Source of the DNA: Caminibacter mediatlanticus TB-2 | GTDB taxonomy: Bacteria; Campylobacterota; Campylobacteria; Campylobacterales; Nautiliaceae | Direction: 5' to 3' | NCBI RefSeq assembly: GCF_005843985.1 | Contig: NZ_CP040463.1 | Coordinates: 856,001-920,000 of the forward strand | DNA: 64,000 nucleotides | Shown: one piece after another, positions 9,909 to 41,600 of the stretch | How the letters are laid out: every line of letters begins with the position of its first letter | Numbering within the stretch: the first letter of the stretch is position 1 | The notes under the pieces: model-generated | Database searches by the model: none | Seen by the model: the letters and a program-made list of their open reading frames with translations, nothing else | What the model was told of the DNA's origin: nothing | Made by a program: the position numbers and the translations under genes

Positions 9909-9969
9909 TTTAATCCTTTTTGAGAATTTTAACAAATTTAATATAATATAAAAAATTAAGGAGGTAAAA

Positions 9970-10218: not shown

Positions 10219-10247
10219 TGGAGATTTAAATCTCCACATATTTTTTT
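10218..10247. terminator. Bidirectional terminator between the BFD gene and ribB
   Basis: A perfect 10-bp inverted repeat (GTGGAGATTT, 10218-10227, and AAATCTCCAC, 10228-10237) with a T-run to the right. It contains the ribB stop codon and the last base of the BFD stop, so it can end both convergent transcripts. Confidence 0.8.
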
Positions 10248-11236
10248 ATGTTAATTCCAAATCCTTTTAAAGCATTTAGATTGCTTTTATGATTTGATAT
10301 TAAATTTAAATTTTTAATTCCAAGATTTTTGAGTATCTGAGCTCCAATGCCAAACTCTTTATTGTCTTTTGAATTTGAGTCAATAAAAATTATAACCCCA
10401 TTATTATACTTTATATATTCAATTGCTTTATTATATTCATTCAGCATTTTTTCGTTAAGTAAAAAATCTACATTTTTAGTGACTTTAAAAAATTTGACAT
10501 TTGAAGTATCTTTTGGATTGTTAGCCAAAACATAATGTCTATTTCCAAGATGGTCTTTGAAAGTTATTTTTTTAAATTCTACTCCATTTATTTTTATGTT
10601 TTCTTCTTTTTCTTTTTTTATTAGGCTTTCAAATTGAAGTTTGTATTCAACTATATCTGAGATATATACAATTGATAAGTTGTGTTTTTTTGCAAATTTT
10701 TTTAAATCATCTCTTCTTGCCATAGTTCCATCTTCGTTCATAATCTCACAAATGACTGCACTTGGATAAAGACCAGCTAATTTGCAAATATCAACACTTC
10801 CTTCTGTATGACCAGTCCTTACTAATACTCCACCATCTTTTGCGATTAAAGGAAAAATATGACCAGGTTTAACAAAATCATCTGGTTTACTTGTAGGAGT
10901 TGAAAGTTTTTTAATTGTTAAATCTCTCTCATACGCGCTAATTCCTGTTTTAGTTTCTTTTGCATCAACACTAATTGTAAATGCAGTAGAAAAACTCTCT
11001 TTATTTTCACTAATCATAGGCTTTAAATCAAGTTTATTCGCAATTTCTTTTGTTAAAGAAACACAAATTAATCCTCTGCCTTCTTTAGCTAAAAAATTTA
11101 CTTTCTCAGGAGTAGAAAACACTCCTGCATAGACTAAATCTCCTTCATTTTCTCTATCTTCATCATCAATCATTATAATCATTTTACCTTTTTGAATATC
11201 TTCTATTGCTTTTTTTACTCTATTTATTGATTCCAT
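10226..11236 (-). CDS. ribB: 3,4-dihydroxy-2-butanone 4-phosphate synthase with degenerate RibA-like domain
   Basis: Residues 1-200 are RibB, which makes the four-carbon unit of riboflavin from ribulose 5-phosphate. Visible are MIDDEDRENEGDL (acid-rich metal loop, residues 21-33), FSTAFTISVDA and the RTGHTEGSVD motif. Residues about 210-336 align in outline with GTP cyclohydrolase II but lack the zinc-binding Cys cluster and the catalytic Arg/Tyr block, so only the first activity is expected. Such RibB fusions with a decayed RibA tail are known in Campylobacter and Helicobacter. The start overlaps the cinA stop by one base (TAATG). Confidence 0.9.
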   Translation of the reverse strand: MESINRVKKAIEDIQKGKMIIMIDDEDRENEGDLVYAGVFSTPEKVNFLAKEGRGLICVSLTKEIANKLDLKPMISENKESFSTAFTISVDAKETKTGISAYERDLTIKKLSTPTSKPDDFVKPGHIFPLIAKDGGVLVRTGHTEGSVDICKLAGLYPSAVICEIMNEDGTMARRDDLKKFAKKHNLSIVYISDIVEYKLQFESLIKKEKEENIKINGVEFKKITFKDHLGNRHYVLANNPKDTSNVKFFKVTKNVDFLLNEKMLNEYNKAIEYIKYNNGVIIFIDSNSKDNKEFGIGAQILKNLGIKNLNLISNHKSNLNALKGFGINIKKYVEI

Positions 11237-12249
11237 TAATCTCCTTTATAATATAACTCAGCAAAATTTATAAACATTCTAATGCCATTCATCATAGCTT
11301 GATATTGAATATAGTTTCTACTACCTTTAAAATGGTAAAGTTCTACTTTTAAATTTTTTCTATCACAAACACCAATATAAACAGTCCCCACTGGTTTTTC
11401 GGGAGTGCTTCCACTTGGGCCTGCAATTCCACTAACTGCAATAGCATAGTCACTTTTTGCTATTTCAATTGCACCAAGTAACATCTCTTTTACAGTCTGT
11501 TCGCTAACTGCTCCATATTTTTCAAGAGTTGCATGACTGACTCCAAGCCACTCTTCTTTTATCCAGTTTGCATAACTTACAACACTTCCATCAAAACAGT
11601 TACTACTACCTGAGTGTTTTGTAAGGCTTGAAGCAATAAGTCCACCAGTGCAACTCTCAGCAAATGTTATTTTTTTAGGAGGTAAAGTTTTTATAATGTG
11701 TTCAAATATGTTTCCAAAAATTACATAAGGAATTGCTTTTGTTATCTCTTTTTTAATTTTTTCATCAAGAGGCTCTGTAAAAAACTGTAAAAAACCTCCT
11801 TCATTTTCTAATAAAGTAAAGTCTAATTTATGAGCATTTAAAATTGGTTCTAAAAACATTAATGTAGTTTCTTTATCAAACCTAAAAACATTTATGCACT
11901 CATACTCAGGAGTAATAATAAAAATTTCTGGAATTTCATCTTCAACTAAAATTACATTTATATTTTTCTGATTAATTTTTACTAAAAAGCTATTTTTACT
12001 AAATTTAGCCATTTCTGGGACTAAAAAGTCATTTTTAACAATTAAATTTTGGTTTGTAAGTCTTGCTATAATTCTTGCAACAAGTGGATATGTTTTTTTA
12101 TTAGTTACAATTAATGAGTCCTCTTTTGGAAGAAATTCTATATCAAAATTATTTAGGTAAACTATTTTATTATAATCAATTAATTTTAAAATATCTTCTT
12201 GTAATTCTTTTTTGAATTTCCACTCTTTACCAACAAAAATAACTTGCAT
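11236..12249 (-). CDS. CinA-like protein with nicotinamide-nucleotide amidase domain
   Basis: The C-terminal domain (from about residue 190) is a PncC/CinA_C amidase that turns NMN into nicotinate mononucleotide for NAD recycling. Family blocks FAESCTGGLIAS, GSVVSYANWIKEEWLGV, YGAVSEQTV and SGIAGPSGSTPEKPVGTVYIG are complete. The N-terminal 180 residues are shorter than and diverged from the usual MoaB-like ADP-ribose pyrophosphatase half of CinA, so that function is doubtful. AAGGAG lies upstream of the ATG. It is co-transcribed with ribB and divergent from ppk2. Confidence 0.85.
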   Translation of the reverse strand: MQVIFVGKEWKFKKELQEDILKLIDYNKIVYLNNFDIEFLPKEDSLIVTNKKTYPLVARIIARLTNQNLIVKNDFLVPEMAKFSKNSFLVKINQKNINVILVEDEIPEIFIITPEYECINVFRFDKETTLMFLEPILNAHKLDFTLLENEGGFLQFFTEPLDEKIKKEITKAIPYVIFGNIFEHIIKTLPPKKITFAESCTGGLIASSLTKHSGSSNCFDGSVVSYANWIKEEWLGVSHATLEKYGAVSEQTVKEMLLGAIEIAKSDYAIAVSGIAGPSGSTPEKPVGTVYIGVCDRKNLKVELYHFKGSRNYIQYQAMMNGIRMFINFAELYYKGD

Positions 12250-12266
12250 TTTTTACTCCTTAGCTT

Positions 12267-12280
12267 TATAATTGTATTAT
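12267..12280 (+). promoter_or_regulatory. -10 region for ppk2
   Basis: TATAAT (12267-12272) and TATTAT (12275-12280) lie 19-32 bases before the ppk2 ATG in the divergent cinA/ppk2 spacer. Confidence 0.4.
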
Positions 12281-12298
12281 AACATTAAAAGGATTAAT

Positions 12299-13087
12299 AT
12301 GAAATTACCTGAATATGAGTTACCAAAAGAGAAAGTATTTAAAGATAATGGAAAATTAAAAAAGAAGTTTTACAAAAAAGAAATTAAAAAGCTTCAAATT
12401 GAGTTTGTAAAACTACAAAGTTATATTGTTAATAATAGAAAAAGGCTTTTGTCTACTTTTGATGGAGTTGATACAGCAGGAAAAGATGGGACTATTAGAA
12501 GGATTTTAAGATATTTAAATCCAAGAATTGCAAGAAGTGTAGCACTTCCAAAACCAAGTGATAGAGAAAAAACTCAGTGGTATTTTCAGAGATATGTTCC
12601 TCATTTTCCAGCAGGTGGGGAATTAATCTTCTTTAATAGAAGTTGGTATAATAGAGCAACAGTTGAGAGAGTTTTTAATTTTTGCACTTATGAAGAATAT
12701 TTAAGATTTATTAGACAAGTTCCAAAATTTGAAGATTTGATAATTGATGAGGGTATTAAATTTTTTAAATTTTGGCTTGATATTAGTAAAGAAGAGATGA
12801 AAAAAAGACTTGAAGAGAGAGAAAAATGTATTTTAAAAAATTGGAAATTATCTTCTCTTGATTGGGAGAGTTACAAACATTATGATGATTATCAAAAATA
12901 CAAAAAAGAGATGTTTGATTTAACGGCAACACCTTATGCACCATGGATAGAAGTAGATGCTAATGATAAAAAAAGAGCCAGAATTAATGTTATGAGATAT
13001 ATCATCTCTAAGTTTGAATATCCCCAAAAAGATTATTTTTATGAAGCTGACCCAAGTATTGTAAAAATAATAACAAATGCAGGATAA
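12299..13087 (+). CDS. ppk2: Polyphosphate kinase 2 family protein
   Basis: PPK2 enzymes phosphorylate nucleoside mono- or diphosphates using polyphosphate. The P-loop FDGVDTAGKDGTI (GxDxxGK) lies near residues 54-66. The lid/catalytic segment FFNRSWYNRATVERVF and the downstream DEGIKFFKFWLDIS and DWESYKHYDDYQKYKKEM blocks fit the family. At 262 aa it is a single-domain form; whether it prefers ADP, GDP or AMP cannot be read off. I use the ATG at 12299, seven bases after AAAGG, rather than a TTG at 12272 that overlaps the -10 box. Confidence 0.9.
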   Translation: MKLPEYELPKEKVFKDNGKLKKKFYKKEIKKLQIEFVKLQSYIVNNRKRLLSTFDGVDTAGKDGTIRRILRYLNPRIARSVALPKPSDREKTQWYFQRYVPHFPAGGELIFFNRSWYNRATVERVFNFCTYEEYLRFIRQVPKFEDLIIDEGIKFFKFWLDISKEEMKKRLEEREKCILKNWKLSSLDWESYKHYDDYQKYKKEMFDLTATPYAPWIEVDANDKKRARINVMRYIISKFEYPQKDYFYEADPSIVKIITNAG

Positions 13088-18831: not shown

Positions 18832-19791
18832 ATGAAAAAATTAGTATTAAGTACACTAACAGCAGCATTTTTATCAACAAGTGCATTTGCATATCAGTTT
18901 ATTACAATTGGTACAGGTAGTGTAACAGGAGTTTATTATCCAACAGGTGGTGCAATATGTAGACTTATGAATAAAGAAAAAAGAAAAACAGGAGTAAAAT
19001 GTACGGTTGAGAGTACAGGAGGAAGTGTATATAACATTAATGCAATAAAAAAAGGTGAGCTTGATTTTGGTATTGCACAAAGTGATGTTGTATATCAAGC
19101 ATATAATGGTGAAGGTAAGTTTAAAGGAAAGCCTTTTAAAGGTTTAAGAGTTGTTATGTCAATTCATCCAGAGTTATTAACTCTTGTTGTAAGAAAAGAT
19201 AGTGGAATTAAAAACTTTTTTGATTTAAAAGGTCATAGAATTAATATTGGAAATCCTGGAAGTGGTAATGAAGCAGCAGTAAAAACACTTTTTGATTATT
19301 GTAAAAAAATGAATTTAAAAGATATTAAAGTAGAACAATTAAAAGTAAGTGAATGTCCAAATGCTTTAAAAGATAAAAAAATTGATGGATATTTCTATAT
19401 GGTAGGACATCCAACTGCGAATATTAAAGATGCAGCAAACTCAACTCAAATTGATTTAATATCACTTGATAATGTACCAGCAGCACAAAAACTTGTAGCA
19501 GAAAAACCTTATTATGCTTGGGGAGTAATTCCAGCTGGAATGTATAAAGGTGTAAATCATCCAACTAAAACTTATGGTGTAAAAGCAATTTTAGTAACAT
19601 CAGATAAAATGGATGATAAAACTGTTTATTATTTAACAAAAGCAATTTTAGATAATTTTGACAAATTTAAAAGAATGCATCCGGCTTATAAAAACTTAAC
19701 TAAAAAAGATTTACTTAAAGGTTTTGATTTAAAAATGATGCATCCAGGTGCAAAAAAAGCTTTCGAGGAAGCTGGATTACTTCCTAAGTAA
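18832..19791 (+). CDS. TAXI-family TRAP transporter solute-binding protein
   Basis: This periplasmic binding protein feeds the neighbouring TRAP permease. Residues 1-20 are a Sec signal peptide ending in AFA. The mature N-terminus FITIGTGSVTGVYYPTGGAICRL is the hallmark of the TAXI (TRAP-associated extracytoplasmic immunogenic) family; a GNPGSGNEAAVKTLFD ligand-loop block follows. TAXI proteins are linked to amino or dicarboxylic acids such as glutamate, but the ligand here is not predictable. A hairpin over its stop codon may favour expression of the binding protein over the permease. Confidence 0.92.
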   Translation: MKKLVLSTLTAAFLSTSAFAYQFITIGTGSVTGVYYPTGGAICRLMNKEKRKTGVKCTVESTGGSVYNINAIKKGELDFGIAQSDVVYQAYNGEGKFKGKPFKGLRVVMSIHPELLTLVVRKDSGIKNFFDLKGHRINIGNPGSGNEAAVKTLFDYCKKMNLKDIKVEQLKVSECPNALKDKKIDGYFYMVGHPTANIKDAANSTQIDLISLDNVPAAQKLVAEKPYYAWGVIPAGMYKGVNHPTKTYGVKAILVTSDKMDDKTVYYLTKAILDNFDKFKRMHPAYKNLTKKDLLKGFDLKMMHPGAKKAFEEAGLLPK

Positions 19792-19800
19792 TCCTTTCTT
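19774..19800 (+). terminator. Intra-operon hairpin between binding protein and permease
   Basis: GGATTACTT (19774-19782) pairs with AAGTAATCC (19786-19794) over a three-base loop that precedes a short T-rich stretch. The weak T-run suggests partial termination or 3'-end protection of the binding-protein mRNA. Confidence 0.5.
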
Positions 19801-19857
19801 AGTTTTTATTCCAAATTTCAAGTTGTTGTTGTTTGTAATGAAAACTAAGGAGGTGTA

Positions 19858-21978
19858 ATGTCAAAGCCTGATATTTTAAAAATTGATAAAGACCTTGATA
19901 AAGAAATTGATGAAGTAGAAAAAGAAGCCATAAAAGGTAAAATTAATAAAGACCTTGAAGAAGAGATTTTAACCGAACTTGAAGGTCAAAGAAATTTTCT
20001 TCCTAATTCAATATATTATTGGCTAATTGCATTAATTGCTTTTTCGTGGTCATTATATCAACTTTATGTAAGTTATTTTCCCGTAAATTCTACAATAGTA
20101 AGAAGTATTCATTTAGCATTTGCAATGGTTTTAGCATTTTTAATCTATCCTATTGCAAAAAAACCTAAATTTTTAAAAAAAATTCCCTGGTATGATTATT
20201 TATTAGCAATCATTGGAGGGCTTGGTGCAGCATATATAGCGATTGATTATGTAGGTCTTTCTAATAGACCAGGTGATTATTTACTAAGAGATGTAGTAAT
20301 TGGAGTTATTTTTATAATAATTTTACTTGAAGCTGGAAGAAGAGTTATTGGTTTTGCATTAAGTATAGTAGCAATTATTTTTTTACTTTATGATAAATTT
20401 GGCCAATATTTACCTGATATTATATCCCATAAAGGGGCAAGTATTGAGAAGATTATTGCACAAATGTATTTAACAACTGAGGGAATTTTTGGTGTTCCAC
20501 TTGGAGTTAGTGCAGGGTTTGTATTCTTATTTGTATTATTTGGTAGTCTACTTGAAAGGGCTGGAGCAGGAGAGTATTTTATAAAGCTTGCTTATGCAAT
20601 GCTTGGAAAGTATAGTGGTGGACCTGCAAAAGCAAGTGTTGTTGCGAGTGGTCTTACAGGTATTATTAGTGGTAGTTCTACTGCAAATGTTGTGACAACA
20701 GGAGTTTTTACAATTCCACTTATGAAAAAAGCAGGATTTCCTCCTGAAAAAGCAGCAGCAATTGAGGTAGCAGCTTCTACTAATGGTCAACTTATGCCAC
20801 CAGTTATGGGAGCAGCAGCATTTATTATTGCTGAATTTTTAGGATTATCTTATACTGATGTAATTATTGCAGCAGCAATTCCAGCAATTACAAGTTATTT
20901 AGCTTTGTTTTATATTGTTCATTTAGAAGCAAAAAAACTTGGTCTTAAAGGGGAAGACCCATCAAAACTTCCTCCAAAATGGCAAACATTTATAAGTGGA
21001 CTTCATTATTTAATTCCTGTAATTTATTTAATGTATGTTTTAATAGTCCTTCGTCAATCGGCCCAAATGGCAGCATTTAGTGCTATTTGGCTTTTAATGG
21101 TAGTTATGATTATTCAATATCCTTTTAAAGCTATCTTTATTGAAAAAAGAAAAGTAAAAAAAGAAGATTTTTTCCAAGGCTTTATTGATATATTCCACGG
21201 AATGGTAAATGGTGCAAGAAATATGGTCCCAATTGCTCTTGCAACTGCGATTGCTGGTATTGTAGTTGGAAGTATTACTCTAACAGGTATTGGTCAAGTT
21301 TTACTTGATGTTATAGATACTTTATCAAATGGTAATATCTTAATAGTTTTACTTTTAACAGCTATAATTTCATTAATTCTTGGAATGGGACTTCCAACAA
21401 CTGCAAATTATATTGTTGTAGCTTCTCTTACAGCACCTGTTATGCTACAACTTGCGCAAGATAATGGATTTATAATTCCAGCTATTGCTGCTCATTTATT
21501 TGTGTTTTATTTTGGGATTTTAGCTGATGATACTCCTCCTGTTGGAATTGCTGCTTATGCAGCAGCAGGTATTGCAAAATCAGACCCTATAAAAACGGGT
21601 CTTCAAGGTTTTGCGTATGATATTAGGACCGCAATACTTCCTTTTATGTTTTTCTTTAATACTGAGCTTTTATTAATAAATAGTGTGAATGAATGGGATA
21701 TAAATGAATTTAGTTTTATTACAAATCCAATACAAATAGCAATTATATTCTTAACAGCAATTTTAGGAATGTTTGCATTTGCTTCTTCAACCCAAGGTTA
21801 TTTTATGGGAAGATTAAATATAATTCAGAGGGCATTATTTTTAGTAGCTGTGCCATTTTTTATGTTACCAAATTTGATGGTAAAATATTTACACATTCCT
21901 AATGAATATATTTCTTATTTAATAGGCTTATTAATCTGGGTAATTATATTTTTCTGGCAAAAAACTTCTAAAAAATAA
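19858..21978 (+). CDS. TRAP transporter fused permease (DctQM-type, TAXI class)
   Basis: A 706-aa inner-membrane protein in which the small (4TM) and large (12TM) TRAP subunits are fused, the usual form for TAXI systems. After a charged cytosolic N-terminus of about 50 residues come the Q-like helices. The M-like part carries VVASGLTGIISGSSTANVVTTG, AASTNGQLMPPVMGAAAFIIAE and ILGMGLPTTANYIVVA, the characteristic Gly/Ser/Thr-rich half-helix motifs of Na+-coupled ion-transporter folds. A strong GGAGG precedes the ATG. It pairs with the upstream binding protein for Na+-driven uptake of an organic acid or amino acid. Confidence 0.93.
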   Translation: MSKPDILKIDKDLDKEIDEVEKEAIKGKINKDLEEEILTELEGQRNFLPNSIYYWLIALIAFSWSLYQLYVSYFPVNSTIVRSIHLAFAMVLAFLIYPIAKKPKFLKKIPWYDYLLAIIGGLGAAYIAIDYVGLSNRPGDYLLRDVVIGVIFIIILLEAGRRVIGFALSIVAIIFLLYDKFGQYLPDIISHKGASIEKIIAQMYLTTEGIFGVPLGVSAGFVFLFVLFGSLLERAGAGEYFIKLAYAMLGKYSGGPAKASVVASGLTGIISGSSTANVVTTGVFTIPLMKKAGFPPEKAAAIEVAASTNGQLMPPVMGAAAFIIAEFLGLSYTDVIIAAAIPAITSYLALFYIVHLEAKKLGLKGEDPSKLPPKWQTFISGLHYLIPVIYLMYVLIVLRQSAQMAAFSAIWLLMVVMIIQYPFKAIFIEKRKVKKEDFFQGFIDIFHGMVNGARNMVPIALATAIAGIVVGSITLTGIGQVLLDVIDTLSNGNILIVLLLTAIISLILGMGLPTTANYIVVASLTAPVMLQLAQDNGFIIPAIAAHLFVFYFGILADDTPPVGIAAYAAAGIAKSDPIKTGLQGFAYDIRTAILPFMFFFNTELLLINSVNEWDINEFSFITNPIQIAIIFLTAILGMFAFASSTQGYFMGRLNIIQRALFLVAVPFFMLPNLMVKYLHIPNEYISYLIGLLIWVIIFFWQKTSKK

Positions 21979-22039: not shown

Positions 22040-22273
22040 ATGTTAGTTAAAGAAATGATTATTGATGAAAATAATATTGCAACTATACCTTCACTTGGTC
22101 TGACGTTTAAAGTGAATGATATGGCAAAAAAAATAATTGAATTAATAAAACAAGATAAAACAAAAGAAGAGATAGTTGAAATTATTTCAAAAGAAGAAAA
22201 TGTAAATTGGGGGCAGGTATATAAAGATATTGAAGATTTTTATATTAAATTAAAAGTATATGGATTATTATGA
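22040..22273 (+). CDS. PqqD-like protein
   Basis: A 77-aa protein resembling PqqD/RRE domains: a short beta region (ATIPSLGLTFKVND) followed by a helical part with two regularly spaced helices (AKKIIELIKQDKTKEEIVEIISKEENV) and a final helix ending YGLL. In known RiPP pathways such domains bind the leader peptide and present it to tailoring enzymes. The stop overlaps the ATP-grasp start (ATGA), indicating translational coupling, so it probably serves that ligase. No precursor peptide was recognised next to it. The family call is from pattern only. Confidence 0.65.
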   Translation: MLVKEMIIDENNIATIPSLGLTFKVNDMAKKIIELIKQDKTKEEIVEIISKEENVNWGQVYKDIEDFYIKLKVYGLL

Positions 22274-23274
22274 AAATAGCTATTAGTGGACTTAATAATA
22301 ATGAAAATCCTGCCCCAGGTATTGGTGTAGCAAGATCGTTGAGAAAATATAATTTAATTGGTCTAAGTTATGATGTAAATGAGAGTGGTATTTATGAAGG
22401 ATTGTTTGAAAAAGTTTATTTAATGCCTTTTCCATCTATTGGCTGGGAAGATATGAAAAATAGGCTTATTGAAATTAAGAAAAATGGCCTTGATATTTTA
22501 ATTCCAAATTTAGATGCAGAACTTCCAATGTTTATAAAATATCAAAAAGAATTAAAAGAAATGGGAATAAAAACTTATCTTCCAAGTTTAGAACAATTTG
22601 AAAAAAGAGATAAATCCAAGTTATCTAAACTTTGTGAAGAATTTGGAGTTAAATATCCAAAAACAAAAGAAGTTTTTAGTTTAGAAGAGTTATATAAAGC
22701 TGTAAAAGAGATAGGATTTCCTTGTATGATTAAAGGAAATTATTACAAAGCTTATAAAGCATTAAATATAGATGAGGCAATTGAATATTTTTATAAAATT
22801 TCTAATGAATGGGGATTTCCAATTTTAGTCCAAGAAGTAGTAAATGGAATTGAGATTAATTATGTAGGTTTTAGTGTAAATGGAGAGCTTAAAGGTGGAG
22901 TAGGTATTAAAAAACTTACAACTACTAATCTTGGAAAAGTTTGGAATGCTTTAAGTATAAAAAATGAAGCTTTATTAAACTTAGCAGATACTTTTTGTAA
23001 GGCAACTTCTTGGAGGGGCGGATTTGAGGTTGAAGCTATTAGTGATGGAAAAGATATTTATTTAATAGAGATTAATCCAAGATTTCCAGCGTGGGTTAAT
23101 TTTGCAACTAAGCTTGGAATTAATCTTCCAAAAATGCTTGTTGATACAATTTTAGGAAAAGAGATAAAAAGAGATTTAAATTATCCTTATGAAAAAATGT
23201 ATATAAGATATGTAGATGAAAATGTTGTAGATTTTGAAATGTATAAAAAACTTTTAGCAAAAAAGGAGCTATAA
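22270..23274 (+). CDS. ATP-grasp ligase, carbamoyl-phosphate-synthase-like
   Basis: A 334-aa ATP-grasp enzyme. The N-terminal pre-ATP-grasp domain (MKIAISGLNNN, then LIPNLDAELPMF) resembles biotin-carboxylase/CPSase-type folds. The ATP-binding part shows FPCMIKGNYYKAYKA, ILVQEVVNGIEINYVGF and the metal-site segment YLIEINPRFPAW (Glu267, Asn269). ATP-grasp ligases activate a carboxylate as acyl phosphate for attack by an amine; the substrate is unknown. Sandwiched between a PqqD-like protein and a PLP enzyme with start/stop contacts, it is probably the first catalytic step of a peptide or amino-acid modification pathway. Confidence 0.85.
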   Translation: MKIAISGLNNNENPAPGIGVARSLRKYNLIGLSYDVNESGIYEGLFEKVYLMPFPSIGWEDMKNRLIEIKKNGLDILIPNLDAELPMFIKYQKELKEMGIKTYLPSLEQFEKRDKSKLSKLCEEFGVKYPKTKEVFSLEELYKAVKEIGFPCMIKGNYYKAYKALNIDEAIEYFYKISNEWGFPILVQEVVNGIEINYVGFSVNGELKGGVGIKKLTTTNLGKVWNALSIKNEALLNLADTFCKATSWRGGFEVEAISDGKDIYLIEINPRFPAWVNFATKLGINLPKMLVDTILGKEIKRDLNYPYEKMYIRYVDENVVDFEMYKKLLAKKEL

Positions 23275-24606
23275 ATGTATAAAAAACCTGTAATTGAAAA
23301 AATTGATACTTTTGCATCAAAAGTTCCATCATCACCTTACAAAACTCAAAGAATAAAAAAAGAGATTGATGGGGTTGATGTTTATGACTTAGTTAAAGAA
23401 TTTGGAAGTCCATTATTTGTATTTAGCGAAAGAGATATAGAAAATAAATATTTAGAATTTAAAGAAGCGTTTAGTAGTAGGTATCCTGATGTTGAATTTT
23501 GGTGGAGTTATAAAACTAACTATTTAGGTGCTATTTGCAAAGTATTTCATAAACTTGGAAGTAAAGCTGAGGTTGTAAGTGAGTTTGAATATCAAAAAGC
23601 AAGACATTTAGGAATTGATGGAAAAGATATTATCTTTAATGGTCCATATAAAAGTAAAGAAGCATTAGAAGTTGCTGTAAAAGAAGGTGCAAAAATTCAT
23701 ATTGACCATTGGGATGAGATTAATGACTTAGAAGAGATTGCTGATAAACTTGGCGTTAATATTCCTGTTGCTATTAGATGTAATATGAATACAGGTGTAT
23801 ATCCATTATGGAGTAGATTTGGATTTAATATTGATAATAATGAAGCATATGATGCAATAAAAAGAATATATGAAGGAAAAAAATTATATCTAACTGGTCT
23901 TCATACTCATATTGGTACTTTTATGTTAAGCGCAGATGCTTATAGAGTTGCTGCTAAAAAATTAACAGAACTTAAAAATAGAGTTGAAGAAGAGTTTGGA
24001 TTTAATATTGAATATCTTGATTTAGGCGGAGGTTTTGCAAGCAAAAATAGATTAAAAGGAGTATATCAACCACCAGAAGTAATTGTACCAACTCCAGATG
24101 ATTATGCAATTGCAATTACTGATACAATTTATGCAACAAATAAGGGAAATTTACCAAAACTTTATCTTGAAACAGGTAGGGCTTTAATTGATGAAGCAGG
24201 GTATTTATTAACATCAGTTTTTGCAAGTAAAAGACTTCCAGATGGAAAAGTTAGTTATATTTTAGATGCTGGGGTTAATTTACTTTATACATCATTTTGG
24301 TATAACTTTGATATATTTTTGAGTAAAAAATATGATGATATTAGTGAGTTATCTATATTAAATGGACCATTGTGTATGAATATAGATGTAATTGCTGATA
24401 ATATTTACCTTCCTCCATTAAATAGAGGCGATGTTGTAACAATTGCGCCAGTTGGTGCATATAATGTAACTCAATGGATGCAATTTATTAGGTATAGACC
24501 AGCAGTTGTGTTAATTGATAAAAATTCTAATCCTCATTTAATTAGAGAAAAAGAGGATTTAGAAGATATTATAAAAAGAGAAATAATTCCAGAATATTTA
24601 AAATGA
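23275..24606 (+). CDS. LysA-like fold-III PLP enzyme
   Basis: A 443-aa member of the group IV decarboxylase/alanine-racemase-fold family. The PLP lysine is Lys80 in SYKTN. Later blocks are GLHTHIGT, YLDLGGGFAS (phosphate loop), LYLETGRALIDEAGYLL and NGPLCMNIDVI (the Cys-containing second-subunit site). These match diaminopimelate or arginine/ornithine-type decarboxylases in outline, with ETGR in place of the common EPGR. It starts directly after the ATP-grasp stop. It is probably not the housekeeping lysA because of this context; the substrate is likely an amino acid handled by the neighbouring ligase. Confidence 0.85.
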   Translation: MYKKPVIEKIDTFASKVPSSPYKTQRIKKEIDGVDVYDLVKEFGSPLFVFSERDIENKYLEFKEAFSSRYPDVEFWWSYKTNYLGAICKVFHKLGSKAEVVSEFEYQKARHLGIDGKDIIFNGPYKSKEALEVAVKEGAKIHIDHWDEINDLEEIADKLGVNIPVAIRCNMNTGVYPLWSRFGFNIDNNEAYDAIKRIYEGKKLYLTGLHTHIGTFMLSADAYRVAAKKLTELKNRVEEEFGFNIEYLDLGGGFASKNRLKGVYQPPEVIVPTPDDYAIAITDTIYATNKGNLPKLYLETGRALIDEAGYLLTSVFASKRLPDGKVSYILDAGVNLLYTSFWYNFDIFLSKKYDDISELSILNGPLCMNIDVIADNIYLPPLNRGDVVTIAPVGAYNVTQWMQFIRYRPAVVLIDKNSNPHLIREKEDLEDIIKREIIPEYLK

Positions 24607-26600
24607 AAAAGATAGAGTTAATATTAAAACCTTATGTCTCTATTATTTTTTTAAGAGATGTAAAGGTAGGAATAGTTTTATTTTTTCTTTCTTTTTTAAT
24701 TCCAAGTGTTGGGATATTAGGTTTAATAGGTCTTATATCTACTATCGTTTTTGCTAATTTTACAAATACAAAAGAAGAGTATTTAAAATATGGTTTTTAT
24801 TTATATAATTCTTTACTTGTTGGTATGGGAATTGGATATTTTTATGAAGTTAGTTTTCTTACAGTTATTCTAACTATATTTTTTTCAATTTTGACTTTTT
24901 TAATTTCATTTTCTTTAAACAAAGTTTTTTATAAATATGCATTACCTATTTTATCTTTACCTTTTGCATTTGTTAGTATGATTTTTTATCTCTCTTCAAT
25001 AAAATATACAACTCTTTTATCTAATATAATTAATAGATATTCAGTTTTTGATATTAATTTTCCTTTTAGCAATTTTTTTAAAAGTTTAGGTACAATAGTT
25101 TTTTTGCCTCTTAATTTAGCAGGAATAGTTATATTTTTAATTTTACTTTTTTATTCAAGAATAATGGCTTTTTTAAGTGTAATTGGATTTGTTGTAGGAG
25201 TTTATTTTCATTATTTATTTGTTGGAGAGTATGCGTTTAGTTCTCTTTTTAATTTTAATTTTATTCTAATTTCAATTGCGCTTGGGAGTATTTTTCTAAT
25301 ACCCCATATTAAAAGTTATTTAATTTCTTTAATTGCAGTAATTTTAAGTGTATTTTTAATTGATGCAATGGAAGTATTTTTTAATTTATATAATCTTCCC
25401 GTTTATACTCTTCCATTTAACATTGTAGTTTTGTTATTTCTTATGCTTTTATATTTTTCTAATTTTAAATATTATAACTTTTCGATTAAAGCTACTCCTG
25501 AGAGAAGTTTAGAATATTTTTTAAGTAATGTATTTAGATTTGGGGGTAATGCTATAAAAATAAATTTACCTTTTAATGGAAAATGGGTAGTTTATCAAGC
25601 TTTTGATGGAGAATGGACTCATAAGGGTAAATGGAAATATGCTTATGATTTTGTTAAAAAAATTAATGGAAAAAGTTATAAAAATGATGGGCTTTGTCTA
25701 AGTGATTACTATGCTTTTGGAGAAAATGTAGTCTCTCCAATTAATGGATATATTGTTAGTTTAAGAGCAGATTTACCTGATAATCCAATAGGAGTTGTAG
25801 ATAGAGAAAATAATTGGGGTAACTATGTAATTATTAAAAGTGATTTTGGATATTATGTAGAAATATCTCATTTAATGCAAAATTCTATGAAAGTGAAAGT
25901 AGGGGATTATGTAAAAGTTGGGGATATTATAGCTAAATGTGGGAATAGTGGGTATTCTCCTGAACCACACATTCACATACAAGTTCAAAAAGATGCATTT
26001 TTAGGAAGTGAAACTCTGTTTTTTAAATGGATAGAATATATAAAAGATGATAAATTATTTTACTACTATTTACCAAAAAAAGATGAAGAAATAGAAGCTC
26101 CTATTTTAGATAAATCTATGAAAAATAGATTAACATTTATTTTAGATGATGAATTTGTTTATGAAGATGATAAAAATAATAAAATAAAATGGACAGTGAA
26201 AATGAATGATAAGGGTGAGTTTTATCTATTTGACGGAGAAAATAGACTCTATTTTTATTTATATGATAAAATGTTTTATTTTTATAGCTATGATGGTAAA
26301 AATAGTTATTTAAAAGAGCTTTTTAAAATTATGCCAAGAATACCGTTAATTTCAAAAGATGTAGAGTATCAAGATATTTTACCTATTTATGTTTTATATA
26401 AGGGATTAAAAAAAATATTTTTAGAATTTATTTTGCCATTTAACATAGAGTTATTTAATAATTTTAAGGTCTATAAAAAAGAAAAATTAAAAATAAATTC
26501 AGAATTTGGAGAAGTGTATTTTAATTTTTATCATAAAGGATTTGATAAAATTGTAAGTAAAGATTTTATTTTGAGGAGAAAATATGAAAACCTTAATTAG
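24603..26600 (+). CDS. Urea-transporter-like membrane domain fused to M23 peptidase
   Basis: A 665-aa fusion. Residues 1-290 contain about ten hydrophobic segments laid out like the urea transporter family, including the short LPLNLAGIVIFL and LPFNIVVLLFL repeats in each half. Residues 320-470 are a LytM/M23 metallopeptidase: H340-x8-D349 (THKGKWKYAYDF), GNYVIIKSDFGYYVEISHL and the H456-x-H458 motif (EPHIHIQV), so the zinc site looks complete. M23 enzymes cut peptidoglycan cross-bridges or Gly-rich peptides. A 170-residue beta-rich tail follows. The start overlaps the PLP gene stop (ATGA), and the end overlaps the TPR gene by 17 bases. Confidence 0.8.
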   Translation: MKKIELILKPYVSIIFLRDVKVGIVLFFLSFLIPSVGILGLIGLISTIVFANFTNTKEEYLKYGFYLYNSLLVGMGIGYFYEVSFLTVILTIFFSILTFLISFSLNKVFYKYALPILSLPFAFVSMIFYLSSIKYTTLLSNIINRYSVFDINFPFSNFFKSLGTIVFLPLNLAGIVIFLILLFYSRIMAFLSVIGFVVGVYFHYLFVGEYAFSSLFNFNFILISIALGSIFLIPHIKSYLISLIAVILSVFLIDAMEVFFNLYNLPVYTLPFNIVVLLFLMLLYFSNFKYYNFSIKATPERSLEYFLSNVFRFGGNAIKINLPFNGKWVVYQAFDGEWTHKGKWKYAYDFVKKINGKSYKNDGLCLSDYYAFGENVVSPINGYIVSLRADLPDNPIGVVDRENNWGNYVIIKSDFGYYVEISHLMQNSMKVKVGDYVKVGDIIAKCGNSGYSPEPHIHIQVQKDAFLGSETLFFKWIEYIKDDKLFYYYLPKKDEEIEAPILDKSMKNRLTFILDDEFVYEDDKNNKIKWTVKMNDKGEFYLFDGENRLYFYLYDKMFYFYSYDGKNSYLKELFKIMPRIPLISKDVEYQDILPIYVLYKGLKKIFLEFILPFNIELFNNFKVYKKEKLKINSEFGEVYFNFYHKGFDKIVSKDFILRRKYENLN

Positions 26601-27177
26601 TTTATTACTTTTTTTTAGTTTTATTTTAGCTAATACTTTAAATATAAAAGAGGCTTATTATAAATCATATAATTATGAAAAAATGGGTGATTATAAAGAT
26701 GCGATTAAAGTTTTAATTCCAATATATGAGAAATACCCAAATGGGTATACTATTAATTTAAGACTTGCTTATCTATTTTTTTTAAATAAAAATTATCAAA
26801 ATGCAATAAAACATTATAAAAAAGCATCTACAATTTTACCTTATTCACTTGAACCAAAACTTGGACTTATGAGAGTATATTTAGCAATAGGCGATTATAA
26901 GAAATTATATGAGATAGGTGACATAGTTTTAAAGACAGATTATTATAATTATTATGGGAATTATTATTATGCATTAGGGCTATATTATGATAAAAAATAT
27001 AAAATTTCGTTAAATTTAGTTAATAAAATGCTAACAATTTATCCTACTGATATAATGTATTTAACTTTGCTTGGAGAAATTTATCTAAATATTGATAAAC
27101 AAAAAGCTATGAAAATTTTTGAAGATTTAATTATATTAGACCCTAATAATATTGTTGCAAGAAAATATATAAAATGA
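26584..27177 (+). CDS. Exported TPR-repeat protein
   Basis: A 197-aa protein with an N-terminal signal peptide (MKTLISLLLFFSFILA) and about four tetratricopeptide repeats, for example residues 20-53 (AYYKSYNYEKMGDYKDAIKV) and the later PKLGLMRVYLAIGDYKKLYE. TPR arrays are protein-binding scaffolds, here most likely periplasmic. It overlaps the M23 fusion upstream and the regulator gene downstream, so it belongs to the same envelope-related operon. AGGAG precedes the ATG. Confidence 0.8.
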   Translation: MKTLISLLLFFSFILANTLNIKEAYYKSYNYEKMGDYKDAIKVLIPIYEKYPNGYTINLRLAYLFFLNKNYQNAIKHYKKASTILPYSLEPKLGLMRVYLAIGDYKKLYEIGDIVLKTDYYNYYGNYYYALGLYYDKKYKISLNLVNKMLTIYPTDIMYLTLLGEIYLNIDKQKAMKIFEDLIILDPNNIVARKYIK

Positions 27178-27752
27178 TTTTAGTTTATGATTATACTGAT
27201 ATTTATGAATTTGATAAAAAAATTGTTTTTAGTCAAGATAATTTTTTTAATGAAGTTTTAAAGGAAAAATATAAAATTCTAATAATTAATTTTGATTTTT
27301 TAAAAGATTTTTTAGAAATTAAAAAGTTTTTTAATGGATATGTTATTTTTATTTATCACATTTATGGATTTGTAGAGTATAAAAAGGCATTGGAAATAGG
27401 AGATTTTTTTTATACATATGATGAGATTTGGAAAGTTAATTTAAGAATAGAATATTTAAAAAAGAAATTAAAAATTAAAGATATTTATAAAATTAAAGAT
27501 TTTATTATTGATATAAAAAATTATATAATTTTCAAAGACAATAAACCAATTAAAATTTCAAAAGCTGAATTTGAAATTTTAAAAACTTTATTATTAAATC
27601 AAAATAAATATATTTCAAAAGAATTTATTTTAAATAGTATTGATGAAATTAATAGTTATGATACAATTAAAGTATTAATTTCAAAGCTTAGAAATTTAGG
27701 TTTTAATATAGAAACAATTAAAAATTTAGGATATAAAATAAAGGAGGAATAA
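27174..27752 (+). CDS. Atypical OmpR-family response regulator
   Basis: A 192-aa protein. The C-terminal 90 residues are an OmpR/PhoB-type winged helix (KISKAEFEILKTLLLNQNKYISKEFILNSI, then DTIKVLISKLRNLGF and a terminal GYKIKEE wing). The N-terminal half resembles a receiver domain in length but lacks the usual acidic pair (VYDYTD instead of a VDDD-like motif), and Asn appears to align with the phosphoryl-accepting Asp (LIINFDF). No sensor kinase is adjacent. It may act without phosphorylation. The tandem 11-bp repeat at the head of this operon is a natural binding site for it (inference). Confidence 0.75.
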   Translation: MILVYDYTDIYEFDKKIVFSQDNFFNEVLKEKYKILIINFDFLKDFLEIKKFFNGYVIFIYHIYGFVEYKKALEIGDFFYTYDEIWKVNLRIEYLKKKLKIKDIYKIKDFIIDIKNYIIFKDNKPIKISKAEFEILKTLLLNQNKYISKEFILNSIDEINSYDTIKVLISKLRNLGFNIETIKNLGYKIKEE

Positions 27753-28570
27753 TGAAAAAGTTATTTTTAAGTGCAGTTGCAGTTATAGGATTAATGGGAG
27801 CAAACTATACAATAATGCCATATGGTGCATTTTTGAGTTATGATAATTCAGTTAAAGATAAAGGGTATATTGGTGGTATATATGGTACTATCTATAAATC
27901 ACCAATAAAATTTGAGTATGGAATTGAAAGAGATATAATTCAATATAAAGATACTACTCCTGATTGGAAACAGTGGAACTTTACAGGAGTTTTTAATTTT
28001 TTTAAAGGTTACAATTATGTATTCAGAGCAGGATTAAACCATCTAAAAGTATCCCAAGGAAATACAAAAGAGAATGATAATGTTTATATTTTAGGAACTT
28101 TATATTATAAATATTTGAATTACAATAGTGGGATTGATTTTTATCATAGTAAATATAAAGATTTTAAAGTAAATCAAGTAAGTTTAAAATATGGAAAGTA
28201 TTTTAAAAATTATGATGGAACTTTTTATTTTGAAATTAAACCAAATTTTATTTTTATTTCAGATAAAATAAAAGCAAATACTCCAAAGAAAAATTATACT
28301 GATGTAGATTTTAAACTAACAGCAACAAAGTGGCCTTGGATAACAACACTTAAAGCATCAGTTGGAAAAAATGCTTATAAAGTAGAAAATGGTGGTTTTG
28401 TTGTTTATAATTTAGGAGAAGAATATAAATATAATTACGGTATTAATGTAAGTAGATATTTTAAAAATATAGGTACTTTTAGTGTGGGATTTTCAAGAAG
28501 TAAGTTTAGTGAAAATAATCAAGATTCTTATTCAAATGTATATCTTTTAACTTATACAAGAGCTTTTTAA
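27752..28570 (+). CDS. Outer-membrane beta-barrel-like protein
   Basis: A 272-aa exported protein with signal peptide MKKLFLSAVAVIGLMGA. The rest is a chain of short alternating aromatic/polar strands (for example YNYVFRAGLNHLKVSQG, VYILGTLYYKYLNY, NYDGTFYFEIKPNFIFI) ending in the strand VYLLTYTRAF with a terminal Phe, the C-terminal signal for barrel insertion by BAM. I do not recognise a subfamily. It is the last gene of the PqqD/ATP-grasp operon, preceded by AAGGAGG, and ends in a terminator. It might be a pore for the product or substrate of the pathway. Confidence 0.75.
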   Translation: MKKLFLSAVAVIGLMGANYTIMPYGAFLSYDNSVKDKGYIGGIYGTIYKSPIKFEYGIERDIIQYKDTTPDWKQWNFTGVFNFFKGYNYVFRAGLNHLKVSQGNTKENDNVYILGTLYYKYLNYNSGIDFYHSKYKDFKVNQVSLKYGKYFKNYDGTFYFEIKPNFIFISDKIKANTPKKNYTDVDFKLTATKWPWITTLKASVGKNAYKVENGGFVVYNLGEEYKYNYGINVSRYFKNIGTFSVGFSRSKFSENNQDSYSNVYLLTYTRAF

Positions 28571-28582
28571 AAAAGCTCTTTT
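28558..28582. terminator. Bidirectional terminator between the barrel gene and metF-like gene
   Basis: AAGAGCTTTTT (28558-28568) and AAAAAGCTCTT (28570-28580) form an 11-bp stem that includes both convergent stop codons and has T-runs on each strand. Confidence 0.7.
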
Positions 28583-36475: not shown

Positions 36476-37106
36476 AGGAATTGGATATGGTTTAGTTAAG
36501 CATTATTTAGAAGAAGGTTATGAAGTTTATGGCCTTGGAAGAAGTAATCCTTTTGGAGATGAAATAAAATTTTATAAAATTGATTTAACAGCATTTGAAA
36601 AAATTCCTCATGCGATAGAGAGTTTAGAGATAGACTCTCTTGATTTAGCAATTTTAAATGCTGGTATATTAGGAGAAATTAAGTTATTTAAAAATTGGAG
36701 CGTAAAAGAACTTAATAATATTTTTGATGTAAATGTTTGGAGTAATAAAGTTTTGATTGATGAGATTTGTGAATTTACAAAAAAGATTGTTGTTATGAGT
36801 AGTGGAGCGGCTGTTAATGGAAATCCTGGGTGGGGAGGATATGCGTTAAGTAAATGTGCTGTTAATATGATGGTTAGTATCTACTCAAAAGAGATTGATT
36901 CTAAAATTTATGCATTAGCCCCAGGAGTTATTGATACAGATATGGTTAGAAAAGTAATAAGTGGTGATAAAAGTAGTTTTCCAAGTTTAAGTAGAGTTGA
37001 AGAGACAAAAGTTGATTTAGAAAGTGGGGTTTTAAGGATTGTTAAAGCAATTGAGAGATTAGATGAATTTAAGAGTGGAAGTTTTATTGATGTAAGGCTT
37101 ATTTAA
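36447..37106 (+). CDS. Short-chain dehydrogenase/reductase (SDR)
   Basis: A 219-aa NAD(P)-dependent oxidoreductase. The Rossmann motif TGISRGIGYGLV is at residues 6-17, NAG in LAILNAGILGE, the catalytic Ser in VMSSGAA and YALSK for the Tyr-x3-Lys pair. The length is slightly short but complete. The substrate is unknown. The start codon lies inside the M48 gene, and its stop shares a base with the next start, so it is translated with the downstream condensin-like genes. Confidence 0.9.
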   Translation: MKVLITGISRGIGYGLVKHYLEEGYEVYGLGRSNPFGDEIKFYKIDLTAFEKIPHAIESLEIDSLDLAILNAGILGEIKLFKNWSVKELNNIFDVNVWSNKVLIDEICEFTKKIVVMSSGAAVNGNPGWGGYALSKCAVNMMVSIYSKEIDSKIYALAPGVIDTDMVRKVISGDKSSFPSLSRVEETKVDLESGVLRIVKAIERLDEFKSGSFIDVRLI

Positions 37107-38161
37107 TGACACATATAGAAGTTTTAAATTTAATTTGTAAATATAGAAAAATAATTGATGAAGCTTATAGGAGTGAAAAAAAAGCTTTAATTTCAGTCCC
37201 AAATGAGCTTGTAGAAATTGGTCTTTTTAATAAAATAGGAAGTTTTTATTATTTAAATGAAGCGTATATAAATTTAGTAGATACTTTACTTGTTAGGGTT
37301 GATTATTCATATGTGGCAGAAGATTTTGAAAAAGAGTTAAAAAGGTTAGTTGAACTCAAAGAAGAGTATAAATTAAAAAAAGCAAATGCCCTAAAAGAGC
37401 TTATTTTAAAGCTAATAAATCAAATTTATCAAGGAATGTTAAATAGGGATAAAAAAGTTTTAGCATTAATAGAAAAGCTTGAAAATGATGAATTAAGCTC
37501 TCTTGATTTATTAATAAGTGAAGCAAAAAGAATTTTAGCTGATGTTGAAGATATAATGATTAAAAATGAGAAAATTGTTGAAGTGTTTAGGGCTTTAATG
37601 GAATTTAGTGAATTTAGTGAGTTTATTAAAGATATTTTTATAGATATTATTCATTTAAATGAAAATGTAGATAGCTTTTTAAAGCGTCTTAGAGAATTTA
37701 TCTCTCAAACTGAGAAGAAAAGAAAACTCAATCAAAAATTATTAAAAATTTCTCATATGATTTTAGAAGAAAATTCTAAAATAGAAAACTATTTAAAAAC
37801 AAAAAGATTTGTTTTAAAACAAAAGTTTGAATATGTCCCTGATAGTGCATATATAAATTATGAAAAAGTAAAAGAAATTGTAGGAAAATTTACAAAGAAA
37901 AAAGACGTTAAAAAATCTATTATAAAAAGAGATTTACAAGAAGTAATTGAGCTAATTAATATTAAAAAGTTGATTGAGTATGTAAAAGGTAGTGATGATA
38001 TTTTTTTAAGTATTATTGAATATATTGGAAAAATTGATAAAAAGTTATTAAATGAGAGTGTTAGAGTTTTTGTCTATATTTTAAATCATTATGATAAAAA
38101 GCTTGAATATAAAAATAGATTTAATAAGTTTAATGTAAAGGTTGTAAAGTGGAAAAAGTAA
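37106..38161 (+). CDS. MukF/MksF/JetA-like kleisin subunit (putative)
   Basis: A 351-aa, almost entirely helical and highly charged protein. The N-terminal 75 residues look like a winged helix (LISVPNELVEIGLFNKIGSFYYLNEAYINLV), the middle is helical bundle or coiled coil, and the C-terminal part carries two short basic helices and a small end domain. It is assigned mainly from context: first of three genes in the order kleisin, KITE, SMC that defines MukFEB, MksFEB and Wadjet JetABC. It is shorter than typical JetA or MksF. It would link the two heads of the SMC dimer encoded two genes downstream. Confidence 0.6.
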   Translation: MTHIEVLNLICKYRKIIDEAYRSEKKALISVPNELVEIGLFNKIGSFYYLNEAYINLVDTLLVRVDYSYVAEDFEKELKRLVELKEEYKLKKANALKELILKLINQIYQGMLNRDKKVLALIEKLENDELSSLDLLISEAKRILADVEDIMIKNEKIVEVFRALMEFSEFSEFIKDIFIDIIHLNENVDSFLKRLREFISQTEKKRKLNQKLLKISHMILEENSKIENYLKTKRFVLKQKFEYVPDSAYINYEKVKEIVGKFTKKKDVKKSIIKRDLQEVIELINIKKLIEYVKGSDDIFLSIIEYIGKIDKKLLNESVRVFVYILNHYDKKLEYKNRFNKFNVKVVKWKK

Positions 38162-38664
38162 TTTTTGAGATTTTAAGTAAGGGAATTATTATTTCAACTA
38201 ACTCTTCTAAATTTCATAAAGAAGCAACTTTTTTACTTGATGATGATAATTTTAATTCTTTAAATAGTACTTTAAATAAGATAGGTCTTTATTTAGTAGG
38301 TGAGTATGGGTATTTTTATTTAAGTAAAGATTTAAAAAGTGATGAAGAAGAGAAATATTTTAATTCTTATAAACATGTAATATTAGCTATTGCTCAGCTT
38401 AAAAAAGTGTTTGTTCATTTAGATAGAGGGCATAAAATAAAAAAGAGTGAGTTTATAAAAAGATTTGAAAATAAAAAAGATGAAAAAATAATAAAAGCTC
38501 TTTTTAATACAGATGATTTAATAGAAATTACAGATAAACTTTTTAATTTATTAGAGAGAAACTATGTGTTAGAAGCAAAGGGAAAAGATGAATATTTAGT
38601 TTTAAATTCAATAAATTATTATCTTGATATAGTAAATGCTATAAGTGAGGTGGAAGATGAATAA
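38149..38664 (+). CDS. MukE/MksE/JetB-like KITE subunit (putative)
   Basis: A 171-aa acidic protein with a two-winged-helix layout. The first part (ILSKGIIISTNSSKFHKEATFLL, then IGLYLVGEYGYFYLSK) matches the MukE-type N-terminal pattern, in which a wing ends in an aromatic YFYL strand; a second helical block follows. KITE proteins dimerise and bind the kleisin in MukB-like condensins. It starts at a GTG inside the preceding gene with AAAGG upstream, and its end overlaps the SMC start by eight bases, implying stoichiometric translation. Confidence 0.6.
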   Translation: MEKVIFEILSKGIIISTNSSKFHKEATFLLDDDNFNSLNSTLNKIGLYLVGEYGYFYLSKDLKSDEEEKYFNSYKHVILAIAQLKKVFVHLDRGHKIKKSEFIKRFENKKDEKIIKALFNTDDLIEITDKLFNLLERNYVLEAKGKDEYLVLNSINYYLDIVNAISEVEDE

Positions 38665-41600
38665 AATTTATTTTTTTAATGCGGCAAATTTTAATTTTGC
38701 TGAGATTGATTTAAGAAAGAAAAATGTTTTTTTTGTAGGAGATAATGGGAGTGGTAAAACAACTGCAATTAGGGCTATTCATTTTTATTACAATTCGGAT
38801 GTAAAAGCATTGGGAATAGATAGCAATAAGCAAAGTTTTAAAGATTTTTATTTTAAGTATGATAACTCTTTTATTGTGTATGAGTTTGAGGACTATTTTG
38901 TTTTGATGTATAAAAAAAGAGGAGATATAAAAAGAGTATTTAGCAAACAAAAATTTAATGTAAACAGATTAATAAAAGATAGCAAAATAGTAGATTTAAA
39001 TGAAGCAATATCTTACGCAAATGAAGCTTCTTTAAAATATAGACCTCAAACTAATGAAGAGTATAAAAAGATAATTTATGGGCTTGATAGAAAACATCTT
39101 GATTTTAAACTTACAACTATTAGAAATTACAATACTTTTATAAATCTTTATAATAAGATTTTTAATGTAAATAAAGCTGTTTTTGATGCAAAAAGTATCA
39201 AAGAGACTATTTTTACGACCCTTGATAGGGTTGAGGTTGGAGAGATAAATTATGAAGATTTTGCAAGCGAACTTAGTGAATATAGGCAATATTTTATTTT
39301 TTATCAAAGATTTAAATCTCAAAGCGAAAATATTGAAAAACTATATCTTTATAAGAATGCTTTAATTAATTTAAAAGAGGAATTAAATGAAATTTTAGAA
39401 AAAATCGCTTATAAAAAAGAGATTGAAGAAAAAGAAGTAGAAGAGTTAAAAGATAAATTAAAAAGCTTATTTGAAGTAAAAAAATTAAAGTTAAAACAAA
39501 TTGGATATTTTGATAAAAAAATAAAAAATATTATTAAGAATATCGAAACTAATTTATTAGAAATTGAAACAAAACTTAATGAAATTAAAAAGCTAAAAGA
39601 AAAGTTTTCTTTAAATAAACTCCAACAAGCAAGAGAAAAAGTAGCTAAAAAAGAGGAATTAGAAAAAAGAATAATTAGTATAAAAACATCTCTAAATGAG
39701 TTAATCAAAGGAATAAAAAATCAAGTAGAAGAGATAGAAGAAGAAATTAATAGATTAAAAAGAGAAAAAAGAGTTTTAAAAGATAGAATAAAAGAAGAAG
39801 AAATTAGAAAAAAAAGAGATTTAGAAGAGAAGTATTATGAGCTTTTAAATAATGAAAAAGAAAAGATTGAGTTAAAGGAAAAAGAGTTAAATGAAGAAAT
39901 TTCAAAGCTTTATAATGAAATATCTAAAATAGAAGATGAAAAAAATACTCTTAAAAAAGAATTAGATGAGGTTAAAAATAAGTTTTTACAAAAAGAAGAA
40001 GAGATAAAAAGTGAAGTAAAAAAATTAATAAATGATTTAAAAAATAAAAAAAGAGATTTAGAGTTAAAAAAAGATGAGTATTTAAATGAGATTATTTCTT
40101 TAAAAAAAGAGCTTAATAGATTAAAAATTAATTATAAAGACCAAATAGAAGATATTGCAATTTTTTATAAAAAAGAGTTTGATAAAATTGAAGAAAAGAT
40201 TAAATTTTATGAAAATATTTTAAAAACAAAACCAAATTCATTTAAAGAGTTTTTAAATCAAAATGTTGATGATTGGGAAGAAGTTTTATATCCTGTAATT
40301 GATGAGAGTTTATTGTCAAAAGATATTAATGAATTAAAGCCAAAAATAATATCAACTCCTGTATTTGGAATTTCTCTTGATACTTCAACATTAAAATCAA
40401 TTCCAACAATGAAAAAAGCAGAAGAAGAGATTGAGAGATTAAAACTATTAAAAGCATCACTAAATGAAGAAAAAAATCAAAAACTTTCTATTTTAGAAAA
40501 AGAATTTAAATCAAAAGAGATAGAGATAACTTCTAAAATTGAAGTAAATGAAGAAAAGATAAAAGAGATTGAGATTGAGAATAAAAATATAGAAAAAGAG
40601 ATTAAAAATTTAAATAAAAACTTGCAAAATAAATTAAAAGAGTTAGAAAATCTAAAAGAAGAAGAGATAAAACTTATAAAAATTAATATAAATAGGAAAA
40701 ATGAAATAATTAAAAAGTTATATATAAAAATTGATAAATTTAAAAATGAGATAAAAAAATTAAAAAAAGAGTTTGAAAATATTAAAAAGTCTCTTAATAT
40801 CGAAAAACAAAAAGAGTATGAAGAGATAAAAAAAGCATTAAATGAAAAATTACAAAAAGAAAGTCTAAAACTTGATGAAAAAATTAAAAATTTAGAAGAT
40901 AAAAAAGATAATATCTCAAAAGATGAAAGAATAATTGAGTTAAATGAAGAAATAGAAATTATTGAAAAAGAGTTAAAAGAGATAGAAAAAGAGGAGTTTT
41001 TCCTAAAAGAGTATGAGGAAAAAAGAAGCTTTTTAGAAAAAGAAGATGAGTTTAAAGAGAAAAAAGAGAAATTTTTAGATTATCAAAAAAGAATTAATGA
41101 ATTTTTCAATAAAATGGATAGATTGCTTAATGAAAAAATAATGAAAATAGAAAAAGAGATTAGAAAATTAGAAGATAAAATCGATTTAATTAATGAAGGA
41201 TTAAAAAAAGTTAAAAGTTTAAATTTACCTGAAAGTAAAAAAGAGAGTAATGAGTTTTTGAGTATTTTAATTGATGAATATTATAAAAAAGAGGGAGATT
41301 TTAAAGAAAAAAGAATTAATTTAAAAGATATAGCAAGTAATATCAAAACTTCATTAGAGAGATTTTCAATTGATGGACTTGATATTAATTTTAATATTGA
41401 AAATTTAGCAAATTTAGAAAAAAATGAGCTTGAAAGAGTAGAGGAGCTTTATATTTTTAAGGATAAAAAGTTTGAAGTTTTAAATAAAACAAGAGTTAAA
41501 GGACTTAAAAATTTAATTAATGGTATTTTAGAAAAAAGAATTGATAATTTTGAAGTAGCAAAAGAGGACTTTTTAGACCAAGTTAGAAAAATAAATAATA

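Follow-up and report, generated by a model that had tools for sequence, protein, structure and literature searches.

A conserved operon of vent Campylobacterota that may couple ATP-grasp ligation and amino-acid decarboxylation to a urea-transporter-fold channel carrying an M23 domain

BtrI, BtrJ and BtrK take part in the butirosin pathway. They comprise an ATP-grasp ligase, a decarboxylase of the LysA fold and a small protein, which in this case is the acyl-carrier protein BtrI (for context see PMC11405602). In the synthesis of Francisella rhizoferrin by FigA/FigC (FslA/FslC), an ATP-dependent ligase, the NIS synthetase FigA, conjugates an amino acid, and a PLP enzyme, FigC, decarboxylates the amino acid that is already joined to its partner (PMC7857480). 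FigC has Met355 in place of the acidic residue that follows the catalytic cysteine, and its specificity helix no longer has the Arg/Asp by which diaminopimelate (DAP) or basic amino acids are bound (PMC7857480). The small RRE proteins of lasso-peptide and PQQ systems (TbiB1, PqqD) and the bacterial urea transporters dvUT and Yut are further points of reference for the locus described here, which shares features with each of these systems. We consider it about evenly poised between right and wrong that its seven genes, A to G, form a self-contained unit that makes a small conjugate of a decarboxylated amino acid and passes it through the membranes.

The seven open reading frames lie at positions 22040-28570 of the window, that is, of the whole 64,000-nucleotide stretch that was analysed, which is part of a complete genome of 1,685,887 bp (Table 1). 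All of them abut or overlap: A with B, C with D and E with F overlap by 4 bp, D with E by 17 bp and F with G by 1 bp, and B and C abut. ORF positions and Pfam matches agree with the genes and domains listed in the initial annotation, including the pairing of an ATP-grasp ligase with a PLP enzyme. The single promoter that it placed in front of the operon found no support, as the 56 promoter-like sites are matched by 57 in shuffled sequence and TRAP-transporter genes on the same strand lie directly upstream, 61 bp from A. These genes encode a TAXI-type binding protein and a fused TRAP permease (18832-21978) and are kept beside the operon in some Nautiliaceae (L032, L033, L010) and absent there in others. 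No RNA elements were found between 18000 and 30000.

Table 1. Features of the operon and their positions in the window.
Feature	Position	Strand	Basis
A, 77-aa PqqD/RRE-fold protein	22040-22273	+	Pfam PqqD 29.1 bits (cut-off 23.4)
B, ATP-grasp carboxylate-amine ligase	22270-23274	+	carbamoyl-phosphate-synthase-like ATP-grasp closest
C, PLP-dependent fold-III decarboxylase, FigC-like	23275-24606	+	Orn/DAP/Arg decarboxylase family match
D, UT-fold channel (residues ~1-285), M23 (~315-480), C-terminal beta domain (~475-665)	24603-26600	+	Pfam, AlphaFold, Foldseek
E, secreted TPR protein	26584-27177	+	TPR matches; N-terminal signal-peptide-like sequence, read directly
F, OmpR-type winged-helix regulator	27174-27752	+	Pfam Trans_reg_C only
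G, 14-strand outer-membrane barrel, OmpG-like	27752-28570	+	AlphaFold pLDDT 94.2
Terminator-like hairpin covering the end of G and of the operon	28558-28580	+	consensus match only

C is the most conserved protein of the operon. Its best solved relative is the N-citrylornithine decarboxylase FigC (7kh2; E 9e-60 with the single sequence, 6e-71 with the profile), and BtrK is a further relative in the PDB. The YKTN lysine and the GPLCMNID loop are invariant, and C and its aligned operon homologues share a T-x-x-W-Y helix and a CMNID loop where LysA, which the host genome encodes separately, has IRPSLY and CESGD. The specificity-helix arginine and the Cys-Glu/Asp loop with which LysA binds DAP are thus both missing from C, which, judged by these residues, is not a diaminopimelate decarboxylase. 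Like FigC, SbnH and BtrK it has a non-acidic residue after the catalytic cysteine, in the form of a FigC-like Cys-Met loop, and a helix without Arg or Asp; of the decarboxylation or racemisation proposed initially, the former is supported by this loop and the latter is not. The residues that define an N-citrylornithine decarboxylase are replaced as well: H357, R387 and N389 of FigC, which contact the citryl group, align with I370, Q400 and M402 of C in the register of the HMMER alignment. Since these contacts are not kept, the partner is probably not citrate, and we infer that C would decarboxylate an amino acid whose side chain already carries some other group. The earlier expectation of an amino-acid-derived product is supported. 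In B the motif EINPRFPAW is invariant. By analogy the B/C pair may work like FigA/FigC and BtrJ/BtrK, although by the features tested it is a member of neither: FigA is a NIS synthetase whereas B is an ATP-grasp protein, and in place of the acyl-carrier protein BtrI, with its phosphopantetheine serine, the operon has A, which is of the PqqD fold. Two known pathways were considered and rejected. A siderophore function would call for a receptor, a NIS synthetase and ABC uptake, none of which the unit contains, in addition to the citryl-binding residues that C lacks. Polyamine or lysine synthesis does not account for A, B and C either, as the genome has its own lysA and C lacks the residues that would suit DAP or basic amino acids. 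Homologues of A, B and C lie outside any polyamine or lysine pathway, so that the outcome named initially as a refutation did not arise.

When GTDB genomes were scanned with B, 40 loci came up, of which 39 are true and nearly all belong to Campylobacterota from vents or comparable environments (Nautiliaceae, Sulfurimonas, Sulfurovum); the close named relatives are mostly Nautiliaceae MAGs. The arrangement A-B-C-D is found again as a unit, together with E and G, at 39 loci in Campylobacterota and at about 20 in Pseudomonadota, the name of the latter phylum and of its classes being taken from the title of one genome, Mariprofundaceae. At Campylobacterota loci with an available flank, A is next to B in 36/36 and C in 35/35, and D follows in 29/29; the respective figures for Pseudomonadota are 19/20, 19/19 and 18/19, and of the 20 loci that were read in these genomes most have A-B-C-D with E and G. 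Such recurrence is far beyond chance. In the high-quality set of 397 Campylobacterota genomes B and D are distributed identically, both occurring in the same 18 (Fisher p ~1.6e-31, shared ancestry being ignored). The profile of B finds matches in 36 of 399 Pseudomonadota genomes; B is present in 20 of the 78 genomes of the class that contains the Mariprofundaceae-titled genome and D in 14 of the 48 genomes of the class of genome G465. Because the genes flanking the operon vary between loci, the unit is self-contained. Vent Campylobacterota and at least two classes of Pseudomonadota would share a widespread metabolite pathway that is unstudied; among the bacteria that carry it are some from the deep sea and some associated with iron or sulfur. 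Two further observations concern individual copies. A Campylobacterota-like copy of B-C-D on a contig of a Mariprofundaceae-titled MAG (L067, JALWPO010000298.1) is probably due to mis-binning. Decaying copies of the operon occur in two Campylobacterota genomes that are complete in other respects (L148 in G011, 4493-10473, and L144 in G080, 6214-12433): A and B are open, and C, D and some others are broken by stops or frameshifts.

The most telling loci are those in which the enzymes have been exchanged. Genomes G465 and G493 contain D, E and G and lack A, B and C, which are replaced by an Orn/Lys/Arg (OKR-type) decarboxylase, whose fold is unrelated, and by another ATP-grasp protein, one of the PRK06524 family; loci L151 (3425-10542) and L152 (8483-17736) show this combination of D-E-G with the alternative pair. 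That two unrelated ligase/decarboxylase pairs go with one channel set points to ATP-driven joining plus decarboxylation as the chemistry, and these loci are strong evidence that this is what D, E and G serve. The variants predict a product of the same type. As G465 and G493 belong to one class, the replacement may have been a single event. The alternative pair is also found, adjacent or close, on Roseobacter and Rhizobium plasmids; a search for D on plasmids with the G465 protein as query gave no match. A homologue of the OKR-type decarboxylase adjoins AspT antiporters on a Rhodobacter plasmid, and PLP decarboxylases paired with exchangers act in acid or proton-motive metabolism in other systems. 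By that analogy C would consume a cytoplasmic proton and D would swap product for substrate, a proposal that we hold to be very improbable here because a cycle that gains energy is unlikely when the same unit includes a ligase that consumes ATP, and because D has the fold of a channel and not of an exchanger. In a different setting, a plasmid of Streptomyces zaomyceticus (NZ_CP108525; L071, 11995-14271) encodes a B-like ATP-grasp and a C-like decarboxylase in a single protein. This fusion adjoins a fatty-acid-desaturase-like gene, and its surroundings are possibly an uncharacterised metabolite cluster. Partial UT domains fused to TPRs occur at L130 (2572-4143) and at L128, where an asparagine synthase lies in the same locus; the two L128 features cover 4030-5535 and 2397-4319.

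The channel protein D departs from known urea transporters in several respects. Both of its parts are recognised by Pfam (urea transporter, E 7e-57; peptidase M23, E 1e-12) and by Foldseek (the urea transporter 3k3g and M23 structures), and the model is of high confidence (pLDDT 91.6). D has the fold of dvUT and Yut and the duplicated LPxxT/S-x-PF motif common to bacterial urea transporters. Different from these it is fused to an M23 domain, and the urea-contacting Gln and Glu of dvUT align with Ser/Ala and Thr/Ser. To the C-terminal beta domain of D no match could be assigned. No urease alpha subunit was found in the host genome, and urea does not support the growth of Nautilia profundicola (PMC2628731). 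Urea uptake was rejected for these reasons, and the assignment of D as a urea channel is supported for the fold and not for the function.

The M23 domain of D has the zinc ligands and catalytic histidine of a metallopeptidase (H340, D349, H423, H456 and H458), all invariant in 42 sequences. D has ten membrane helices, and since this number is even the M23 domain lies on the same side of the membrane as the N terminus. The loops on the N- and C-terminal side contain 0.099 Lys+Arg per residue as compared to 0.024 on the opposite side, with the N-terminal side the richer in 41 of the 42 sequences. By the positive-inside rule and the predicted model, the M23 domain would thus be cytoplasmic. This placement is at variance with the peptidoglycan-type peptidase in the envelope that had been proposed for D, and with the extracytoplasmic location expected of a peptidoglycan hydrolase; placed in the cytoplasm by charge, the domain is probably not a wall hydrolase. 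D would then put a peptidase domain that normally acts on cell walls at the cytoplasmic side of a UT fold. The complete set of catalytic residues and the Foldseek matches to wall hydrolases, together with the periplasmic or outer-membrane nature of E and G, are what one would expect if A to C made an amino-acid-derived group that is installed on or near peptidoglycan and the M23 domain were periplasmic. We regard such an envelope modification as improbable, because both the charge distribution and the even number of helices argue for the opposite location and the operon encodes neither a transferase nor a wall-binding domain.

The proposal of ribosomal-peptide (RiPP) tailoring goes back to A, which is a genuine member of the PqqD/RRE fold, as assumed initially: it scores above the Pfam cut-off, TbiB1, an RRE of a lasso-peptide system (5v1u), is matched at E 2.6e-7 by a profile built from 31 relatives, and no acyl-carrier family is among the matches of A. 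RRE domains are the usual markers of RiPP loci (PMC12710340), the lasso-peptide RREs are the closest to A, and the L128 locus includes an asparagine-synthase gene. In such a system A would bind the leader of a precursor whose gene lies elsewhere and B would form an amide on this peptide; C would decarboxylate an added residue, in the way of MccE on microcin C, and trimming of the leader would fall to the M23 domain. A precursor encoded in cis was rejected: near 69 loci no short ORF is common beyond close relatives, a search confined to the loci themselves, and the interior of the operon offers no space for one. Different from lasso-peptide and PQQ systems, the operon also has no radical SAM enzyme and no protease B2, and in some loci A carries a TetR fusion. 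Moreover, A is missing from the locus in G465 and G493, which have retained the channel module, and from the Streptomyces fusion of B and C, and a peptide would be too large for the narrow pore of a UT fold. Because of the lack of a conserved precursor ORF and the existence of variants without A, a RiPP pathway is disfavoured, and we consider it unlikely, if somewhat less so than an envelope modification. Of the original proposal the PqqD/RRE domain has stood, and A is the one component that suggests such tailoring.

G has no Pfam match; its top Foldseek hit is OmpG (2f1c), followed by CymA, and a C-terminal aromatic residue is present in 40 of 40 aligned relatives. No receiver domain was detected in F by Pfam. 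F is near 10 of the 21 Campylobacterota operons with enough flank and near none of 17 Pseudomonadota loci; it is an addition of the Campylobacterota. At several Pseudomonadota loci a TetR-like N-terminus is fused to A instead, which suggests that the regulation is interchangeable.

How, then, would a unit for a small decarboxylated conjugate work? We infer an order in which B, in the cytoplasm and possibly positioned or regulated by A through its RRE fold, would couple an amino acid with a carboxylate or an amine at the expense of ATP, after which C would strip the coupled amino acid of its alpha-carboxylate in a PLP-dependent reaction. The small product would cross the inner membrane through the UT-fold channel of D, whose cytoplasmic M23 domain would probably hydrolyse an amide in the substrate, the product or an intermediate, E would connect the inner and outer membranes, and G would provide the pore in the outer membrane. 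In favour of this model are the conserved gene order, the shared distribution of B and D, the closeness of C to FigC beside a separate LysA, the Streptomyces fusion, the exchanged enzyme pair and the positively charged M23 side of D; in addition, D and G are predicted with high confidence to be a channel and a porin-like barrel. Then again, UT pores are narrow and a large conjugate might therefore not pass, A lacks a clear task here and some of the variants do without it, and the cytoplasmic location of the M23 domain is derived from charge statistics and a predicted structure. Passive channels are, in addition, equally compatible with import and with export.

The initial annotation saw no counterpart of the set among named pathways, and this view finds support. 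None of the open-licence papers searched links PqqD, ATP-grasp and a urea transporter, and none describes a UT-M23 fusion; the combination of the enzyme pair with a UT-M23 channel, a TPR protein and a barrel is likewise absent from them. We propose, tentatively and with less confidence than we have in the conjugate itself, a hitherto undescribed small-molecule system in which an ATP-grasp/decarboxylase pair supplies a route of its own, made up of UT-M23 channel, periplasmic TPR protein and porin, and in which the pair can be exchanged for an unrelated one while the chemistry is kept.

Two observations were made elsewhere in the window. The region 37106-46671 contains an MksE-like gene (38149-38664), a gene for a 1187-aa SMC/DUF3584-like ATPase, and then genes for a WD40-type protein and a metallophosphoesterase; models of a defence library match here, and the region is possibly a Wadjet-like or other defence island. 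In the gene for the WD40-type protein (42218-44734) a 120-bp unit is repeated 11.8 times in tandem with 97% identity, followed by a GTPase-like region; the repeat may have expanded recently or may vary in length.
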